This document shows, one piece after another, positions 3,167 to 12,097 of a stretch of 12,097 nucleotides of DNA. Under the pieces are notes generated by a model. That model saw nothing but the letters and a program-made list of their open reading frames with translations, did not search any database and was not told the origin of the DNA. The stretch is from Bacteroidaceae bacterium (GTDB lineage Bacteria; Bacteroidota; Bacteroidia; Bacteroidales; Bacteroidaceae). Location of the stretch: assembly GCA_021443285.1 (NCBI GenBank), contig JABUUG010000041.1, positions 1 to 12,097 on the forward strand. The letters run 5' to 3'. The position numbers were made by a program, and so were the translations under genes. The stretch's first letter is position 1. The number at the start of each line of letters is the position of its first letter.

Positions 3167-3847
3167 ATGAGGATAGACATAATCACAGTATTGCCCGAAA
3201 TACTTGAGGGCTTTGTAAACACATCGATACTCGGTAGGGCGCAGAAGAAGCAATTAGCCGAAATACACCTGCACAACCTGCGCGACTACACGCAAGACAA
3301 ATGGAGGCGTGTGGACGACTATGCCTACGGCGGACAGGCGGGCATGGTGATGCAGTGCGAACCCATAGACCGCTGCATAACAGCGCTGAAAGAGGAACGC
3401 GACTACGATGAGGTGATATACACCTCGCCCGACGGAGAGCAGTTCTCACAGCCCATCGCAAACCAACTGTCCCTGCTCAACAACGTGATAATACTCTGCG
3501 GCCACTACAAGGGCATCGACCAGCGAATACGCGACCACCTCATCACACGGGAGATATCCATCGGCGACTATGTGCTTACGGGCGGAGAGCTGGCGGCGGC
3601 AGTAATGGCAGACGCCATAGTGCGCATCATTCCCGGAGTGATAACCGACGAGCAGAGCGCACTCTCCGACTGCTTTCAGGACAACCTGCTCTCAGCACCC
3701 ATCTACACCCGACCCGCCGACTACAAGGGATGGAAGGTGCCTGACATCCTGCTCTCCGGCCACGAGGCAAAGATACGCGACTGGGAAATGGAACAGGCTA
3801 TAGAACGGACCCAGAGGCTCAGACCAGAGCTGCTAAAAGGGAGTTAA
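3167..3847 (+). CDS. trmD: tRNA (guanine37-N1)-methyltransferase
   Basis: Methylates N1 of G37, next to the anticodon, in tRNAs with G36, using S-adenosylmethionine; this prevents +1 frameshifting. The length, 226 residues, is normal for the family. The N-terminus [12 protein letters not shown], the segment [14 protein letters not shown] near 50-63, the SPOUT knot pieces [13 protein letters not shown] near 109-121 and [14 protein letters not shown] near 131-144, and the C-terminal segment with SGHEAKI are all typical of TrmD. The start is ATG. It lies 14 bp after the patatin gene, not in an rpsP-rimM-trmD-rplS operon as in many Proteobacteria. The stop codon TAA (3845-3847) is part of a GGAGTTAAAAG stretch that looks like the first unit of the downstream array. 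Confidence 0.95.
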
Positions 3848-4087
3848 AAGAGATTGGGGGAAGTTAAATGAGTTAAGGGAGTTAAGGGAGTTAAAGGAGT
3901 TAAAGGAGTTAAAGACAAATGACTTTTTCTCAGATACGGGTTGAAATTGGTACTAAACAGGTAATGTCTTTAACTCCTTTGACTTCTTTAACTTCTTTAA
4001 CTTCCCAAAATATCTCCTTTAACTCCAAAAAGAAAAACACCCCAAACTCCCAAAAGAAAAACTTCCTCTAACTTCCCGTAACTCCCA
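3841..4087. repeat. Mirrored 9-bp arrays around a core, copy 1 (trmD-ligA)
   Basis: The left arm (about 3861-3917) is built from 9-bp units of the type GAGTTAAAG or GAGTTAAGG, at least five in a row. The right arm (about 3964-4012, with decayed units to 4087) has the complement with the same 9-bp period (CTTTAACTT/C). The core edges are GACAAATGAC at 3914-3923 and GGTAATGTC at 3960-3968, with 36 bp between. The innermost AAAGGAGTTAAAGACA of the left arm is exactly complementary to the start of the right arm, so a long hairpin is possible. It fills nearly all of the 251 bp between trmD and ligA. It could act as a bidirectional terminator or be a non-autonomous repeat element; neither is shown. 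Confidence 0.8.
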
Positions 4088-4098
4088 ATTTAAATATT

Positions 4099-6123
4099 AT
4101 GGACGACTTCAAGGCACATATAGCCACCCTGCGCCGGCAGTTGCATGAGCATAACCACAACTACTACGTCATGAACTCTCCGACAATTTCCGACCGAGAG
4201 TTCGACGAAATGATGCACAGGCTGCAGGAACTGGAGGCACAACACCCGGAACTATACGACCCGAACTCCCCCACACAGCGCGTGGGTTCCGACCTTCAGG
4301 AGGGCTTCACGCAGCGGCAGCACAAGCACCCCATGCTGTCGCTGGCAAACACGTACAACGAGGCAGAGGTGGCGGAGTTCTACGACTCCGTATCACGCGG
4401 CCTCAACGGCGAGCCTTTCGAGATATGCGCGGAGATGAAGTACGACGGACTCTCCATATCGCTGACATACATAGACCGCAAACTGGCATATGCAGTAACG
4501 CGCGGAGACGGAGTGAAGGGCGATGACGTAACGCAGAACGTGAAGACCATACGAAGCATACCACTCATTCTGACAGGCGACAACATACCCGACGAGTTTG
4601 AAATCAGGGGCGAGATACTCATGCCGTGGAAAAGCTTCGACAGGCTGAACAAGGAGCGCGAGCAGCAGGAAGAACCGCTGTTTGCCAATCCGAGAAACGC
4701 TGCCAGCGGCACACTTAAAAGCCTGAACAGCAAGGTTGTGGCACAACGGCAACTCGACGCATACCTCTACTACCTCATCCTCCCGGAGCAAGACCCGCAG
4801 GACCTCTTTGCCGTAAGCCAAAAAGGGCACTACGAAAACCTGCTGATGGCGGAGCAATGGGGGTTCAAGATTTCGCAGGGCATGAGGCTGTGCAAGACGA
4901 AAGAGGAGGTGCTGCAGTTCATAGACTACTGGGACGATGAGCGCAAGAACCTGCCCGTTGCCACTGATGGAATAGTGCTGAAGGTGAACTCGCTGAGGCA
5001 GCAGAAGAACCTCGGATTCACCGCAAAGTCGCCACGATGGGCAATAGCATACAAGTTCAAGGCAGAAAGGGCAACGACACGCCTCAACTCGGTGTCGTTC
5101 CAAGTGGGGCGGACAGGAGCCATAACCCCCGTAGCCAACATGGACGCAGTGCAACTCTCCGGCACTACCGTGAAACGGGCCACTCTGAACAACGAGGACT
5201 TCATCAGGCAGTTTGACCTCCACATAGGCGACAACGTGTATGTGGAAAAGGGCGGCGAGATAATACCGAAGATAGTGGGCGTGGACAAGGACAGCAGAGT
5301 GGCAGACGCCGTGCCAGTGCAATTCATCACCCACTGTCCCGAGTGCGGCGCAGAGCTGGTGAAGAATCCCGGCGAGGCTGCCTACTACTGCCCGAACAGC
5401 AGCCAATGCCCGCCACAGATAAAGGGTAAGATAGAGCATTTCGTGTCGCGCAAGGCTATGAACATCATGGGCTTGGGTGCGGAAATAATAGAGCATCTCT
5501 ACAACAGCGGACTGATAACCAACATAGCCGACCTCTACCAACTGCGTGTGGAGCAGCTGAACGGCGACGGCAGCAAGCAGAAGTCGGCACAGAACATCAT
5601 CAACGCGATAGAGGCGAGCAAGCAGGCGACATTCGAGAGGGTGCTCTTCGCGCTTGGAATACCACAAATCGGCGAGACCACAGCAAAGATTCTCGCCCGC
5701 AGATTCATCTCGCTCGACAACCTCATGGCAGCCGACCCGCAGACACTGACTGACACAGACGGTGTGGGGCAGGTGCTTGCCGAGTGCATAACGCGCCATT
5801 TCGCCGACGGCAAGAACCGGGAAATCATAGAACGCCTCAGGCAGTACGGCCTGCAGTTCCAGATTTCCGAGGACCAGCAGGCGGCAAAGACCAACCGTCT
5901 TGAAGGGATGTCAATAGTTATCTCCGGAGTGTTCACCCACCACAGCCGAGACGAATACAAGGTAATCATCGAGCAGAACGGCGGCAAGAAGGTCGGGTCG
6001 ATAAGCAAAAAAACATCCTTCATCCTTGCGGGCGAGAATATGGGACCCGCAAAACTGGAGAAAGCTCAGGCACTGAACATAAGAATAATGAACGAGGAAG
6101 AGTTCCTGCAGTTAATAAGTTAA
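4099..6123 (+). CDS. ligA: NAD-dependent DNA ligase LigA
   Basis: Seals nicks in duplex DNA in replication and repair, with NAD+ as adenylate donor. The 674 residues match the usual length. Domain Ia at the N-terminus contains [19 protein letters not shown], which binds NMN. The adenylation motif K-Y-D-G is at 114-117, with K114 as the predicted AMP-lysine. Other nucleotidyltransferase motifs are [11 protein letters not shown] (about 197-207), TDGIVLKV (289-296) and [10 protein letters not shown] (314-323). An OB fold follows. A four-cysteine zinc finger uses C413, C416, C431 and C437. Helix-hairpin-helix repeats lie around 440-585, and a BRCT domain occupies about 599-674. The start is ATG. 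The gene is flanked on both sides by mirrored repeat arrays, and its TAA stop lies within the AAGTTAAAGG unit of the next one. Confidence 0.97.
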
Positions 6124-6216
6124 AGGAAGTAAAAGGACAATACTTACTGACTATAAAACACATATGTCCCTTAACTTCCGCTGCAGCATAACTTCCTCTA
6201 ACTTCCTTTAACTTCC
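6117..6216. repeat. Mirrored 10-bp arrays around a core, copy 2 (ligA-oxidoreductase)
   Basis: The left arm (6117-6139) has two 10-bp units, AAGTTAAAGG and AAGTAAAAGG, leading into ACA. The right arm (6165-6216) has the complement, TGTCCC then units such as TTAACTTCC, also at a 10-bp period (CTCTAACTTC, CTTTAACTTC), interrupted by GCTGCAGC at 6180-6187. The core between the GGACA and TGTCC edges is about 25 bp and diverged from copies 1 and 3. The stop codon of ligA (6121-6123) is inside the first unit, and the start codon of the next gene lies 22 bp past the right arm. Confidence 0.7.
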
Positions 6217-6237: not shown

Positions 6238-7425
6238 GTGGAAATCATTCACTTCAACACCCTTATAATCGGCGGCGGTCCTTCAGGGAGCAGTTGCGGC
6301 ATAAGGCTTCGCAAAGAGGGGGCGGAGTGCTGCATTGTGGACAGGCGCACCTTTCCACGCACAAAACTCTGCGCAGGACTGTTCACCCATAAGTCACAGC
6401 AGTGTCTGCGCCACCTGCTCGGCGAAGAGGATTACAGCAAGGCCATCAACACCTCGCTGATGTCACAAGAGGCAAGGTTCTCCCTCTACCGCGGCATGGA
6501 CGAGCTGGTGACCTGCGACCTTACCGACCGTAATCTCCAGCCGAAACAGTTGCGCGACACCGACTGCCGCATAATGCTTCTCAGCCGTCCAAAGCTTGAT
6601 GAGTTCCTTTTGCGGCATTTCCAGAAGATGGGAGGAACGGTCATGGAAGGCGACGCACTGAAGGCGGTGGATTTCGAGAGCAAGACCGCCACACTGTCAT
6701 CGGGCAGACAGATACAATTCGACAACCTGATAGCCGCCGACGGCGCCAACAGCTCTGTGGAGCGTCTGTTGGCAAAACATGACAGCAGTTTCAAGAAAAG
6801 ACCCGATGACGCCCTGTGTCTTGAGATAAATGTTGACAGGGAAGACCTTAACATGGACGGCGTAAGGATATACTTCGACATAGTACCCAACAGCTATGCA
6901 TGGGTGTTTGCGAAAGGAGAGAAAACCTGCATCGGACTTGTAAAGGAGGGGAAAGAAGGGAAAGAAAGTGTCAGCCAGATAATGACCTCCTTCTGCCGGA
7001 AAATTGGAGTGAAGAACATGGAGAAATATCCTCTGAAAGGTGCTATGCTCCCCTTCAACAGCCTGATGGAGAAACCCGCATACAAGGACTTCTTATATTT
7101 CATTGGTGATGCCGCCGGGCTTGTAACCCTCCCCACTGGCGAAGGCATATACTTTGCACTGCAAAGCGGGGTGTATGCAGCGGAAAGTGTTCTGTCTCAG
7201 CTGCATACGGAACAATACCTAAAGAAAGTGGAATACCTGCACCGCATAATCCACCGCGGGCAGTATTACCAAAAACTTTTAGAAACACCCCGATACATTT
7301 CCTTCCTCTACCGACACGCATCGCGCAACGCACGCTTCATAACATACTTCTACCTGACACAAATAGAGCGTGCAAGCCACGAAGCATTCTGGAAGGTTGT
7401 GTTGAGATATAAGATTGGGAAGTAA
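6238..7425 (+). CDS. FAD-dependent oxidoreductase, geranylgeranyl reductase-like
   Basis: A 395-residue flavoprotein of the family that includes geranylgeranyl reductases and p-hydroxybenzoate hydroxylase-type enzymes. The N-terminal Rossmann motif TLIIGGGPSGSSCGIRL (8-24) ends in the acidic residue of IVDRR near 33-37. PRTKLCAGLF (40-49) resembles the K-x-C-x-G segment of geranylgeranyl reductases. The second FAD contact is FDNLIAADGANSSVERLL (161-178) and the third is the GDAAG motif at 290-294 followed by LPTGEGIYFALQSG. No signal peptide or strong membrane helix is seen. Likely chemistry is NAD(P)H-dependent reduction of an isoprenoid double bond, for example in a quinone or lipid tail, but the substrate is unknown. 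The start is GTG; no better in-frame start is obvious. Residues about 236-244 carry a small EGKEGKES repeat from a 9-bp DNA duplication. Confidence 0.82.
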   Translation: MEIIHFNTLIIGGGPSGSSCGIRLRKEGAECCIVDRRTFPRTKLCAGLFTHKSQQCLRHLLGEEDYSKAINTSLMSQEARFSLYRGMDELVTCDLTDRNLQPKQLRDTDCRIMLLSRPKLDEFLLRHFQKMGGTVMEGDALKAVDFESKTATLSSGRQIQFDNLIAADGANSSVERLLAKHDSSFKKRPDDALCLEINVDREDLNMDGVRIYFDIVPNSYAWVFAKGEKTCIGLVKEGKEGKESVSQIMTSFCRKIGVKNMEKYPLKGAMLPFNSLMEKPAYKDFLYFIGDAAGLVTLPTGEGIYFALQSGVYAAESVLSQLHTEQYLKKVEYLHRIIHRGQYYQKLLETPRYISFLYRHASRNARFITYFYLTQIERASHEAFWKVVLRYKIGK

Positions 7426-7452
7426 GCCCCCCAGCCCCCTGAAGGAGGAGCT
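7423..7452. repeat. C-rich repeat over the oxidoreductase stop codon
   Basis: The sequence from the stop codon reads TAAGCCCCCCAGCCCCCTG then AAGGAGGAGCT. Apart from four substitutions it matches the left arm of the palindromic element inside the response-regulator gene (AAGCCCCCCTGCCCCC then TAAAGGGGGAGCTT). It looks like a single arm of the same family. The TAA stop of the upstream gene is its first three bases. The short inverted repeat CCCCCT/AGGAGG is imperfect, and a termination role is doubtful. Confidence 0.65.
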
Positions 7453-7559: not shown

Positions 7560-9839
7560 ATGAGTACAATCTATCTTGGCATCGTAATATTCCTAATCCT
7601 GTTAGCAATATTCGACATCGCAGTGGGCGTCAGCAACGACGCCGTTAACTTCATCAATTCCGCCATCGGCAGCAAGGCGGCAACGTTTCGGACAATCATC
7701 ATCGTAGCCGCCATCGGTGTCTTTACGGGAGCATCGCTCTCCAACGGCATGATGGACATCGCTCGCCACGGCATCTTCACGCCATCCTATTTCTCCTTTG
7801 AGGAGGTGATGTGCATCTTCCTCGCCGTAGTGGTTACTGACGTGGTGCTGCTGGACATCTTCAACTCCATGGGTATGCCCACATCCACCACCGTCTCGAT
7901 GGTATTCGAGTTGCTCGGCGGTGCCTTCGCCATCTCTATGCTGAAGGTGATGGGCGACAGCAGTCTCTCCCTCGGCATACTGCTCAATACTGACAAGGCG
8001 TTCCAAGTGATTATCGCCATATTCATGTCTGTGGCGGTGGCGTTCGTCTTCGGATGGATAGTCCAATACATCACACGCATAATCTTCACCTTCACCTACA
8101 GCAAAGGAGCGAGAATAAGGCAGGGCGTATTTGCAGGACTGAGTCTTACTGCAATAGTCTATTTCCTGCTAATCAACGGGTTGAAAGGGTCGTCGCTGAT
8201 GACGCCTCAGCTTAAGGCCTTCATCGACGGAAATACGATGGAGATAGTGGCAGGTTGCTTTGCCCTCTTCACACTGCTGATGACGGTGCTGACACTGCTG
8301 AAAGTGAATGTCCTGCGCATAGTGGTTCTTGCCGGCACCTTCGCGCTCGCCATGGCGTTCGCCGGCAACGACCTTGTGAACTTCATCGGCGTAACGCTGG
8401 CGGGCATATCCTCCTATCAGGACTTTGTGGCCAACGGCTCCGGCGATGCCTCCACATTCATGATGACATCGCTGATGGAGTCTGCCAAGACACCAATATT
8501 CTACCTCATCGGGGCAGGAATAATAATGGTTGTGGCACTCACCACGAGCAAGAAGGCACACAATGTGGTGAAGACCTCCGTCGACCTTGCACGTCAGGAT
8601 GAGGGCGACGAAATGTTCGGTTCTTCGCATGGCGCACGTTCGCTTGTACGCAACACGCTCGCCGTTACAAAAACCGTCTGCCGCTTCACCCCCACCCCAC
8701 TGCGCCACTATATTGGCACTCGTTTCAATGTGCAGGAAGCGGAACTGAAAGACGGAGCTGCCTTCGACCTACTTCGCGCAGCAGTAAACCTTGTGCTCGC
8801 CGGTCTGCTCGTGGCACTCGGCACTTCCTTCAAGCTGCCGCTGTCAACAACGTATGTTACCTTCATGGTGGCAATGGGTTCATCGCTTGCCGACAGGGCA
8901 TGGACAAGAGAATCGGCGGTATTCCGAATCACGGGCGTGTTGTCCGTCATAGGCGGATGGTTCATAACAGCTGGAGTAGCATTTATCTTCGCTTCAATAG
9001 TATGTGCAACGATGTATTATGGCGGAATAACACTGATGCTTGCCTTCATTGTCCTGGCAGTCTTCCTCCTAATACGCAGCAATATAAAATATGCAAAGAA
9101 GGCAAAGCAGAAGGATGAACTCAACGAGATATTCAGGGAGCTCGCATCACTGCCACAGCCCCGTCCGGGTTCTGCCGATACCGCACAAATCTACAACGAG
9201 GCACACAGGCTCATAGCCAGACACAGCAAACTGTCGAACATTGAGATTCTCGACTTCGTGCGCTACGAGTTCAGGCAGATGGCAGACGCCTTCTTCAACG
9301 ATGACTACAACAGCATAAAACATTCCTACTCGCATCTTGAGGACGAGCGCAAACGCTGGAAACGCATACGCCGCCGTGAGATTATCGGCATGAGACGCAT
9401 AGACCCGATGGTGGCAATAGAGAAAAACACCTGGTTCTTCCTCGCCAACAACGCCGCCAGCCAGATGATTTACTGCCTCAAGCGACTCTCCGAACCCCTT
9501 ATCGAGCATCTCGGCAATCGTTTCTCACCCCTTCCGCAGGAGGTCTATATGTCTTATACAGCTATCAGCGAAGAGATATACCCACTCTTCGGACGCACCA
9601 TAACAATGCTGCAAGACGACGACTTCACACTCGCCGACGACATACGCCGCGATGCCCAGCAGTTGCAGGCCAGACTTTCCAGTCTGCGTAAGCAACACAT
9701 CGACACGATGACGGCACACTCGCAAGGAAACGGTGCAAGCAACGCCGAACTCGTGTATATAAACATCATCCAGGAGACGCAAGAACTTATAGGTTCCCTC
9801 CGCCACCTCATACGCGGACTTGCCAGACTTAGACAATAA
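7560..9839 (+). CDS. PiT-family phosphate transporter with PhoU-like C-terminus
   Basis: An inner-membrane, ion-coupled inorganic phosphate transporter of 759 residues. Both inverted halves of the PiT fold show their signature pairs: SNDAVNFINSAIGSKA (25-40) with GMPTSTTVSMVFELLG (105-120), and AGNDLVNFIGVTLAG (268-282) with KLPLSTTYVTFMVAMG (425-440). About ten or more hydrophobic segments run up to residue 505. Residues about 510-759 are soluble, charged and helical, with spaced segments such as ILDFVRYEFRQMADAFFNDD (563-582) and a closing VYINIIQETQELIGSLRHLI (732-751). This pattern resembles PhoU, which in other bacteria links phosphate transport to PhoR signalling. A candidate Pho box lies upstream and PhoB/PhoR-type genes follow, so phosphate-starvation control is likely. 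The transporter call is firm; the PhoU-like assignment rests on pattern and length only. Its TAA stop begins a C-rich hairpin. Confidence 0.9.
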   Translation: MSTIYLGIVIFLILLAIFDIAVGVSNDAVNFINSAIGSKAATFRTIIIVAAIGVFTGASLSNGMMDIARHGIFTPSYFSFEEVMCIFLAVVVTDVVLLDIFNSMGMPTSTTVSMVFELLGGAFAISMLKVMGDSSLSLGILLNTDKAFQVIIAIFMSVAVAFVFGWIVQYITRIIFTFTYSKGARIRQGVFAGLSLTAIVYFLLINGLKGSSLMTPQLKAFIDGNTMEIVAGCFALFTLLMTVLTLLKVNVLRIVVLAGTFALAMAFAGNDLVNFIGVTLAGISSYQDFVANGSGDASTFMMTSLMESAKTPIFYLIGAGIIMVVALTTSKKAHNVVKTSVDLARQDEGDEMFGSSHGARSLVRNTLAVTKTVCRFTPTPLRHYIGTRFNVQEAELKDGAAFDLLRAAVNLVLAGLLVALGTSFKLPLSTTYVTFMVAMGSSLADRAWTRESAVFRITGVLSVIGGWFITAGVAFIFASIVCATMYYGGITLMLAFIVLAVFLLIRSNIKYAKKAKQKDELNEIFRELASLPQPRPGSADTAQIYNEAHRLIARHSKLSNIEILDFVRYEFRQMADAFFNDDYNSIKHSYSHLEDERKRWKRIRRREIIGMRRIDPMVAIEKNTWFFLANNAASQMIYCLKRLSEPLIEHLGNRFSPLPQEVYMSYTAISEEIYPLFGRTITMLQDDDFTLADDIRRDAQQLQARLSSLRKQHIDTMTAHSQGNGASNAELVYINIIQETQELIGSLRHLIRGLARLRQ

Positions 9840-9880
9840 GCCCCCCTACCCCAGTTACCACCCCTAAAGGGGGGGCTTAT
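9837..9880 (+). terminator. C-rich hairpin at the transporter stop codon
   Basis: TAAGCCCCCC (9837-9846) is perfectly complementary to GGGGGGCTTA (9870-9879), giving a 10-bp stem with an inner CCCCTAAAGGGG hairpin option. TTTAT follows. It could work as an intrinsic terminator between the transporter and the regulator genes, though the U-tract is short. It belongs to the same C-rich family as the elements at 7423 and inside the response-regulator gene. The stop codon of the transporter is its first three bases. Confidence 0.6.
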
Positions 9881-9897
9881 TTATAGAACCCACTTTT

Positions 9898-10626
9898 ATG
9901 AAGAAGATTCTTGTTGTAGATGACGAGCAGGACATAGCGGAGATACTGCAATACAATCTCTCCGCTGAAGGCTATGACGTGGATACTGCCTTTTCCGCAG
10001 AGGAAGCCCTGAAGAGAGACCTTACGCAATACGACCTGCTCCTTCTTGATGTAATGATGGGCGAGATTTCGGGCTTCGGACTCGCACGTCTCATGAAGCA
10101 AAAGTCACAGACAGCCCACATACCCATCATATTCATCACCGCCCTCAGCGGCGAAGAGGAGATTGTCAAAGGGCTCGACATAGGCGCAGACGACTATATC
10201 GCCAAACCCCTGTCGATCAAGGAAGTGAAGGCAAGGGTAAGGGCTGTGCTCAGAAGATTCCCCCAAGCCCCCCTGCCCCCTAAAGGGGGAGCTTACCTTA
10301 ACACCCCCTTTAGGGGGCAGGGGGGCTTGGGGCAGGGAGCTTCCATAGTCCATGAAAACCTCGTCATAAACCTTGACGAAATGACCGTAACCGTTGAAGG
10401 CAAAGCCATAGAACTTACACGCCTTGAGATGGAAATCCTCATTTTCCTACTCAAGAACAAAGGAAGGGTATATACACGTCAGGAACTCATCGACCGCCTT
10501 TGGCCTAAAGACACCGTTGTTCTCGAGAGAACCGTTGACGTGAACATCACCCGACTGCGCAGAAAGATTTATCCCTACGGAGAAAACATAAAGACAAAGA
10601 TTGGATATGGCTACTACTTCAAATAA
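9898..10626 (+). CDS. PhoB-like OmpR-family response regulator with inserted palindrome
   Basis: A DNA-binding response regulator of 242 residues, probably the phosphate regulator PhoB. The receiver spans about 1-120, with acidic D8 and D9, phospho-acceptor D51 (LLLLDVMM), T81 and K103 (AKP). The winged-helix effector spans about 150-242 and ends ERTVDVNITRLRRKI and GYGYYFK, close to PhoB (E-D-R-T-V-D-V-H-I-R-R-L-R in E. coli). Between them, residues 122-145 (PQAPLPPKGGAYLNTPFRGQ then GGLG) are encoded exactly by a 72-bp inverted repeat related to nearby intergenic sequence. Without it the protein would be 218 residues, nearer the family norm. The insertion is in frame and in the flexible linker, so function may be kept. 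The start is ATG, 58 bp after the transporter gene. The downstream kinase gene overlaps its end by 20 bp. The PhoB name is likely but not certain. Confidence 0.9.
   Translation: MKKILVVDDEQDIAEILQYNLSAEGYDVDTAFSAEEALKRDLTQYDLLLLDVMMGEISGFGLARLMKQKSQTAHIPIIFITALSGEEEIVKGLDIGADDYIAKPLSIKEVKARVRAVLRRFPQAPLPPKGGAYLNTPFRGQGGLGQGASIVHENLVINLDEMTVTVEGKAIELTRLEMEILIFLLKNKGRVYTRQELIDRLWPKDTVVLERTVDVNITRLRRKIYPYGENIKTKIGYGYYFK
10261..10332. repeat. 72-bp perfect inverted repeat embedded in the regulator gene
   Basis: Two 29-nt arms (10261-10289 and 10304-10332) are perfectly complementary across a 14-nt spacer. Each arm also contains CCCCC-TAAA-GGGGG or its complement, so smaller hairpins are possible. 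The length of 72 bp is 24 codons without a stop in the gene's frame. The arm matches the C-rich elements at 7423-7452 and 9837-9880. A degenerate piece of the right arm (GGGGCAGGGAGCTT, 10329-10342) follows, so the true insert may be a little longer. No clear target-site duplication is seen. Confidence 0.93.
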
Positions 10627-11950: not shown

Positions 11951-12075
11951 AAGTTAAAGGAAGTGGAGTTAATGTGGAGTTAAGGAAGGTAAAGTGGGGT
12001 TAAAGTGACAAATGACTTCTGCACAAAAAGGTAATGTCACTTTAACTCCACTTTAACTCCACATTAACTCCCCTT
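11951..12075. repeat. Mirrored 11-bp arrays around a core, copy 3 (after phoR-like gene)
   Basis: The left arm (about 11951-12010) has units near 11 bp such as GTGGAGTTAAT and TGGGGTTAAAG. The right arm (12034-12075) has CACTTTAACTC twice and CACATTAACTC once, an exact 11-bp period. Core edges GACAAATGAC (12007-12016) and GGTAATGTC (12030-12038) are the same as in copy 1, here only 13 bp apart. The variant unit GTTAATGTGG of the left arm is mirrored by CCACATTAAC in the right arm, so the two arms track each other. It lies 22 bp after the kinase stop codon and runs almost to the window end. Confidence 0.8.
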
Positions 12076-12097
12076 CGCTACACTTAAATAACTCTCC

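Follow-up and report, generated by a model that had tools for sequence, protein, structure and literature searches.

An in-frame palindromic repeat in a Bacteroidaceae response regulator linker, and its probable kinship with DUF559 nuclease units

The response regulator gene shown above carries, in the linker between its two domains, a 72-bp stretch that belongs to a dispersed repeat, lies in frame and is absent in full from the listed homologues. This stretch is probably a nuclease-less, MITE-like member of a repeat family whose halves are the terminal inverted repeats (TIRs) of units encoding a DUF559 endonuclease of the Vsr/EDxHD type, inserted in frame into the regulator gene. A wider proposal stands at about even chances, namely that hairpin-like TIRs and DUF559 form an undescribed class of mobile elements, which enters genes in frame without splicing, persists in essential enzymes as an additional domain and sheds nuclease-less palindromes that lengthen proteins; in-frame palindromes and EDxHD nucleases are each already known. 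The window, i.e. the whole stretch of 12,097 nt that was analysed, stems from a metagenome-assembled genome (MAG) of 2.56 Mb in 309 contigs that is 76.8% complete.

The palindrome at the regulator locus and its copies

The reading frame of the regulator begins at position 9898, and the 72 nt are therefore exactly codons 122-145, placed between the Pfam domains Response_reg (residues 4-115) and Trans_reg_C (residues 168-241). The two arms of 29 nt each are 100% complementary, with 14 nt between them (Table 1); the observed inverted-repeat score was matched by none of 200 codon shuffles of the linker, and the RNA fold of the element reaches -86.9 kcal/mol (z -6.74, with 0/200 equally stable shuffles). 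The inverted repeat cannot be a product of chance. The same geometry, perfect arms around a short spacer making up 24 in-frame codons between the domains, had been proposed in a first-pass annotation made from the letters alone, and it was confirmed by inverted-repeat search, the open reading frame and Pfam. Each half-element end consists of a C-rich tag and a C/G hairpin, and on each strand two of its three frames are open. No Rfam family matched the window at gathering scores.

Table 1. Coordinates of the palindrome and related features in the window, and positions of DUF559 units inside or fused to host proteins
Feature	Position or locus	Strand	Basis
Intergenic half-element AAGCCCCCCAGCCCCCTGAAGGAGGAGCT, directly after TAA (7423-7425) of gene 6238-7425	7424..7452	+	
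Intergenic half-element, arms 9835-9846 / 9870-9881, overlapping TAA (9837-9839) of gene 7560-9839	9835..9881	+	
OmpR/PhoB-type response regulator gene, 242 aa, carrying the insert	9898..10626	+	ORF list, Pfam
Palindromic element, 72 bp = codons 122-145 (PQAPLPPKGGAYLNTPFRGQGGLG), interdomain linker	10261..10332	+	inverted-repeat search, Pfam, orthologue alignment, homologue listing
Left arm = half-element: tag CAAGCCCCCC, 2 nt, hairpin CCCCCTAAAGGGGG	10261..10289	+	inverted-repeat search, genome core search, G156 comparison
Spacer, 14 nt; place that holds DUF559 in the G116 and G351 units (putative homology of position)	10290..10303	+	
Right arm, exact reverse complement of left arm	10304..10332	+	inverted-repeat search
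LeuRS	L345: between chain residues 236 and 237		solved structure
LeuRS	L385: between chain residues 236 and 240		solved structure
LeuRS	L400: before editing domain, as L345/L385		Pfam only
LeuRS	L344: behind editing domain		Pfam only
MetH	L409: between two B12 domains; no TIR at score 14		
Methylmalonyl-CoA mutase	L383: between catalytic and B12 domains		
MiaB-like radical SAM enzyme	L387: DUF559 inside, one open frame		
ABC-F ATPase	L338: DUF559 inside, one open frame; no TIR at score 14		
MazG	L327: DUF559 inside, one open frame		
NAD epimerase	L346 and L348 (L348 by eye); neither with TIR at score 14		
Helicase	L343: DUF559 behind P-loop		
CCA-adding enzyme	L436: DUF559 inside, one open frame		
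GAF-type methionine sulfoxide reductase	L441: chain 58/63		solved structure
Another DegT aminotransferase	L422: DUF559 inside, one open frame		
N-terminal host fusions	SpoU L322, guanylate kinase L349, HisF L388		Pfam
DUF559 fused in frame to IspF N-terminus, eight genus loci	L328, L330, L332, L342, L357, L358, L360, L362		by eye

The DNA of the arms is repeated throughout the MAG. The arm core CCCCCTAAAGGGGG has 11 matches (6 forward and 5 reverse), two of which are the regulator arms, and a control read backwards has 0; allowing up to one mismatch, CCCCCTNNAGGGGG is found at 30 places versus 2 for its control. The first-pass annotation had pointed to related copies at 7423-7452 and 9837-9880 as intergenic; both are real and both are intergenic save for the TAA stop codon that they share with the gene upstream. 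These half-elements (7423-7452 and 9835-9881) start at that stop (TAAGCCCCCC), so that their ends look as if they supplied or overlapped the stop codon, and half-elements in such a position may have a role as 3′-end hairpins. The second one ends 16 nt upstream of the regulator ATG. Elsewhere in the window, at 3837-4077, 6117-6214 and 11951-12085, long imperfect inverted repeats between genes are built from other dispersed repeats, of the AGTTAAAGG / GGAGTTAA type.

Repeat-derived peptides inside unrelated proteins, proposed at the outset as a check, were found in the same genome. An esterase (Pfam PF22244) contains about 24 extra residues around GTPFRGIGGLP that are derived from the repeat, lie in frame and are missing from all 119 of the 119 homologues listed. 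Further candidates for in-gene copies are NuoN (C276) and an ORF (C18), presumably topoisomerase IV-like, which has a C-terminal insert and no Pfam match. In a sugar MFS transporter (C130), APQSPEGG..SPIRGQRGL occupies the loop between the two halves of the protein and its DNA matches the repeat; this copy was rejected as a clean insertion because this loop varies and exceeds that of a 90% identical homologue by only about 5 residues. A homologue of this transporter (P0149) has another repeat-like peptide (PPTSPQGEDNHPDDSSLPHVGESEG) in the same loop, seen at the protein level only.

The repeat is by no means restricted to this genome. A scan of contigs yielded at least 126 full elements among at least 120 stretches, most of them in Bacteroidota, some in Thiotrichaceae/Marithrix and some, of another type, in Clostridia. 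At the Clostridia loci L072, L092, L144, L164 and L167, the core matches a long palindrome of a different kind (CACCTTCCCCTAAAGGGGAAGG). In-frame copies were found in a DUF2400 protein of Mucilaginibacter (L111), whose domain spans the insert, in a molybdopterin oxidoreductase of Larkinella humicola (L124), where the copy separates two Pfam domains, and in a glycosyltransferase (L123), and several proteins of genus relatives carry more than one copy (L195, L216, L200, L192). As open frames served to detect the in-gene copies, disrupted genes would have escaped; the lengths of the 126 elements listed, most of them intergenic, are distributed without bias over the three residues modulo 3 (49, 39, 38).

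Age of the insertion and recurrent use of the linker

The full insert is present only in the window regulator among 30 aligned orthologous loci (0/29 others) and in none of the 120 closest homologues listed, which are the best 120 of 7,999 scored. No close relative with an empty insertion site was found. The nearest relative, in genome G156 (73% identity), instead holds QAPQPLKG in its linker, and 23 of 28 bases of the underlying DNA agree with the half-element, which here too starts 6 nt after the conserved RAVLRR; none of 5000 shuffles reaches this match, and the next best of the other distinct linkers attains 17/28. We read the G156 piece as the decayed left half of the same old insertion, whose right half would have been lost. 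Because a decayed left half is kept at the same offset in the nearest relative, the insertion is probably old and probably predates the split between the window lineage and G156; independent insertions at the same base in both lineages are possible but less likely. The arms in the window are identical despite this age and have therefore probably been renewed, either by template switching within the palindrome or by a later inverted duplication of one half through which the second arm was regained.

These observations modify the original interpretation, which is thus partly supported. Spread of a dispersed repeat in frame into the linker stands, with the full insert lacking from the other 29 aligned orthologues and from 120/120 listed homologues; residues 122-145 as a whole are indeed missing from the relatives aligned, as the suggested alignment had been meant to reveal, and the arm core recurs at other places in the genome. 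Neither outcome that would have spoken against it, a linker conserved across distant genera or an arm occurring nowhere else, appeared when looked for. The perfect arms had been ascribed to a recent event or to ongoing arm-to-arm correction: the former is unlikely given the decayed half in G156, and the latter, or inverted duplication of a half, fits better. The description as an intergenic repeat holds insofar as the repeat is dispersed, and it can be extended, since by its architecture the palindrome would be the end pair of a TIR-bounded DUF559 unit, and units of this kind are in turn found within the frames of host genes.

The linker of this regulator family has received another palindrome as well. 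Over 99 orthologue loci there are 79 distinct linkers of 12-38 residues (median 17), and clear inverted repeats occur in two of the 79, that of the window and that of L048 in genome G138 (score 23, 0/200 shuffles). The insert in L048 belongs to a different palindromic repeat family (CATTGACCATTGACC), with 28 matches in the G138 genome, and lies in frame in the same linker. A palindrome in the linker of L238 (G345), whose score is reached by 1/200 shuffles, was not counted as a second foreign palindrome, because 1/200 is weak among 79 linkers and the DNA is not repeated in the G345 genome. Several listed homologues carry other repeat-like linker peptides, e.g. NQGDRSRDSL..GPVPLI, at the protein level only.

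DUF559 units with inverted-repeat ends

Half-elements of the same kind frame genes for DUF559 nucleases. TIRs were scored as the best ungapped inverted match between the 220-nt flanks of DUF559, with a threshold of 14. The genus set of 72 loci comprises the 30 best by E-value, 40 chosen loci (some of them for long frames) and L195 and L200; 59 of the 72 score at least 14, with a median of 27. Flanks cross-paired between different DUF559 loci reach the threshold in 15.2% of 600 pairings (median 9), a rate raised by the likeness of the C-rich ends across all families, and controls at the same loci gave 0/143 for random windows and 0/25 for other ORFs. The 13 loci with no TIR at score 14 include the in-frame units L338, L346, L348 and L200 (score 11). 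When loci were ranked by nothing but their resemblance to the L195 nuclease, 23 of the 30 in that set score 14 or more, with L414 counted as a miss owing to a mis-set domain stretch, and in the 25 genomes reached through elements of the contig scan 18 of 30 DUF559 loci do so. Ends of the CCCCTAAAGGGG type were seen at DUF559 units of Spirosoma (L386), Bacteroidia (L391), Bacteroidales (L392) and Marithrix (L384), with one change in L391 and L392.

TIRs and nucleases diverge in concert: over 61 of 97 loci, those with a TIR score of at least 20, the Mantel correlation is -0.645 (0/2000 permutations), and it remains at -0.529 for the 1743 pairs with a protein distance above 0.35. This pattern shows the ends and the DUF559 gene descending together as a unit, which speaks of linkage and not of catalysis.

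The closest connection with the window element is provided by three genomes, G116, G117 and G351, whose units contain the same core CCCCCTAAAGGGGG or a near-identical one. In G117 (L195) two full elements frame DUF559, in one open frame within a DegT-type aminotransferase; projected onto PDB 2po3, the host sequence stops at residue 184 and resumes at residue 187, and the ends GCCCCCCAGCCCCCTAAAGGGGG and GCCCCCCCGCCCCCTAAAGGGGG are shared by the element with the nuclease-bearing unit. The arrangement in G351 (L415) is half-element, DUF559, half-element, with ends AGCCCCCCTATCCCCCCTAAAGGG, in the same aminotransferase gene and at the same site as L195/L413 of G117, and in G116 (L200) half-elements within a different gene enclose a nuclease that shares 84% identity with its G117 counterpart. 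The presence of the same unit in two genes, in G117 and G116, is the most direct sign of mobility here. Ends shared with a nuclease-bearing unit, the hallmark of a MITE-like derivative, are thus found in G117 and G351; the MAG of the window has no such unit.

DUF559 units lie inside, or are fused to, a range of host proteins (Table 1), and at two of the IspF loci, L342 and L358, a further repeat peptide was noted inside IspF. The site of the unit is shared between the aminotransferases of G117 and G351. The LeuRS units have diverged (44-64% identity, and 44-58% for those at like sites) and are not each other's nearest relatives, which would point to a permissive place that such units may have entered more than once rather than to one homing lineage.

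By sequence profile, DUF559 has the catalytic residues and the fold family of EDxHD enzymes: it matches PDB 3hrl at E 4.7e-32 and, at E 1.1e-6, the nuclease of a mobile intron, 3r3p, and E24, Q44, D53, E64, D66, H70 and D79 are invariant in 58 sequences. In published work, a gene with DUF559 is counted among the EDxHD homing nucleases (PMC9403480) and DUF559 among Vsr-like enzymes (PMC12907096), and a transposase/DUF559 segment of Legionella is described as a recombination hotspot (PMC12308824). Within the open-licence PMC literature, mostly judged by titles and passages, neither a TIR-bounded DUF559 element nor a repeat with CCCCTAAAGGGG / CCCCTTTAGGGG was found described; the lone text match for the latter concerned NarL.

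Origin of the palindrome and comparison with known systems

A tentative sequence of events can be drawn up for the reading as a nuclease-less derivative. The autonomous form would be a unit of TIR, DUF559 and TIR with the endonuclease as its sole gene. The nuclease would recognise, nick or cut the hairpin ends, the unit would then be copied or moved, and internal deletion would leave pairs of ends behind. Since two frames out of three are open on each strand of an end, insertions of suitable length and phase would lengthen the host protein by a Pro/Gly-rich peptide; selection would keep in-frame copies in interdomain linkers and loops, as the open frames suggest, and template-switch correction or inverted re-duplication may keep the arms alike. 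That DUF559 drives the mobility is what we infer from this architecture.

The distribution of DUF559 over genomes bears on this proposal and on two of its competitors. DUF559 is present in 15 of the 25 genomes reached through contig-scan elements and in 120 of 200 sampled genomes of the genus; 8 of these 200 have the element, and DUF559 and PF01797 each occur in 6 of the 8, so that presence does not discriminate between the two. DUF559 has no match in the window's own MAG (76.8% complete) nor in the element-rich genome G027, for which mobility in trans, loss of the autonomous copy or gaps in the MAG may each account. Element-rich genomes lacking DUF559 are also what one would expect if the palindrome were self-contained, like the palindromic elements of Rickettsia (RPEs), and spread by template switching, recombination or another route without any relation to DUF559. 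RPEs have, to our knowledge, no enzyme-bearing partner. In 6 of 122 elements (L071, L103, L115, L149, L170, L180) the arms continue into the locus-specific flank (null 0.19%), a pattern consistent with an inverted duplication as well as with entry into a (terminator) hairpin already in place. Against such a self-contained repeat stand the framing of DUF559 by TIRs and the exact-core units in G116, G117 and G351, and we regard it as unlikely.

Somewhat less plausible is a REP-like palindrome of the kind known from Proteobacteria, with a RAYT/IS200-type HUH transposase (PF01797) as its mover and DUF559 a mere passenger that collects near repeats. The six of eight element-bearing genomes with PF01797 include the window's own, with one partial match, and REPs inside genes are described for RAYT systems in passages of PMC3733652; on the other hand, the element-rich genomes G027 and G156 have no PF01797 match, and CCCCTAAAGGGG was found in 0/12 PF01797 loci examined (the own partial match lies outside the 12), five of which have TIRs of other sequence. 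The C-rich ends frame DUF559 instead, and the GTAG/CGTC tag of REPs was not seen in the consensus half-element. Neither presence, which did not by itself separate RAYT from DUF559, nor flanks support RAYT as the mover.

That the element is bypassed or spliced out rather than translated, in the manner of a byp-like hairpin or an intein, is very improbable. Its hairpin is strong, and DUF559 units occur in essential proteins at positions that inteins also occupy, the one after a helicase P-loop being an example, yet the copies examined, though found by their open frames, keep an open and in-phase frame, a Pfam scan of host proteins bearing DUF559 showed no Hint/intein domain, and DUF559 with its ends takes up the whole of the 150-180 aa inserts. 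The idea that there was no insertion and that a C-rich Pro/Gly linker arose by local duplication in the window lineage can draw on the variable length and sequence of this linker across the family, but it is hardly tenable, as it is contradicted by the same DNA at many other places of the genome and by the same half at the same offset in G156.

If the wider proposal of an undescribed element class is true, its spread through Bacteroidota, with ends of the same type in one gammaproteobacterial MAG, would mean that new linkers and domain fusions arise from it generally. In-frame palindromes have so far been associated with Rickettsia and a few REP systems, without a named mover; here they are tied to a testable enzyme and its ends, in phyla that are tractable in the laboratory. 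Should DUF559 be the mover, a 'domain of unknown function' would gain a role, many Pro/Gly-rich linkers and DUF559 fusion proteins would be explained, and the tolerance of proteins to insertion would become visible in nature, with LeuRS loops and regulator linkers entered more than once.

Several known systems share parts of this picture. RPEs, which PMC3733652 mentions, are palindromic repeats that lie in frame in unrelated protein genes and also between genes, and the window element is likewise a palindrome open in frame inside a protein gene; it probably differs in sequence and lies in another phylum, and DUF559 units are known to share the ends only here. REP/REPIN sequences with their RAYTs are short hairpins with a tag, often in inverted pairs, mostly intergenic and sometimes in genes, according to PMC3733652; here there is no GTAG or CGTC at the foot of the hairpin, the tag of the half-element reads AAGCCCCCC, and the enzyme between the ends is a nuclease of the Vsr-like kind instead of an HUH transposase. 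PINSR of Prevotella intermedia/nigrescens is also a dispersed intergenic repeat of Prevotella, but at 188 bp, and stated in PMC4755523 to be without terminal inverted repeats, it does not belong to the window family. The ShiLan domain is an in-frame insertion that carries an endonuclease without the hallmarks of inteins or introns (PMC11855218); its nuclease is of the HNH type, hidden in another frame of a phage methylase gene, whereas DUF559 is in the frame of its host and is accompanied by TIRs. The Vsr-like EDxHD homing endonucleases (I-Bth0305I, PDB 3r3p) share with the present enzymes the match to the DUF559 profile and the conserved E, Q, D, E-x-D-G, H and D; the units described here differ from them in that the gene is bounded by hairpin TIRs, with no intron or intein, and in that nuclease-less derivatives exist.
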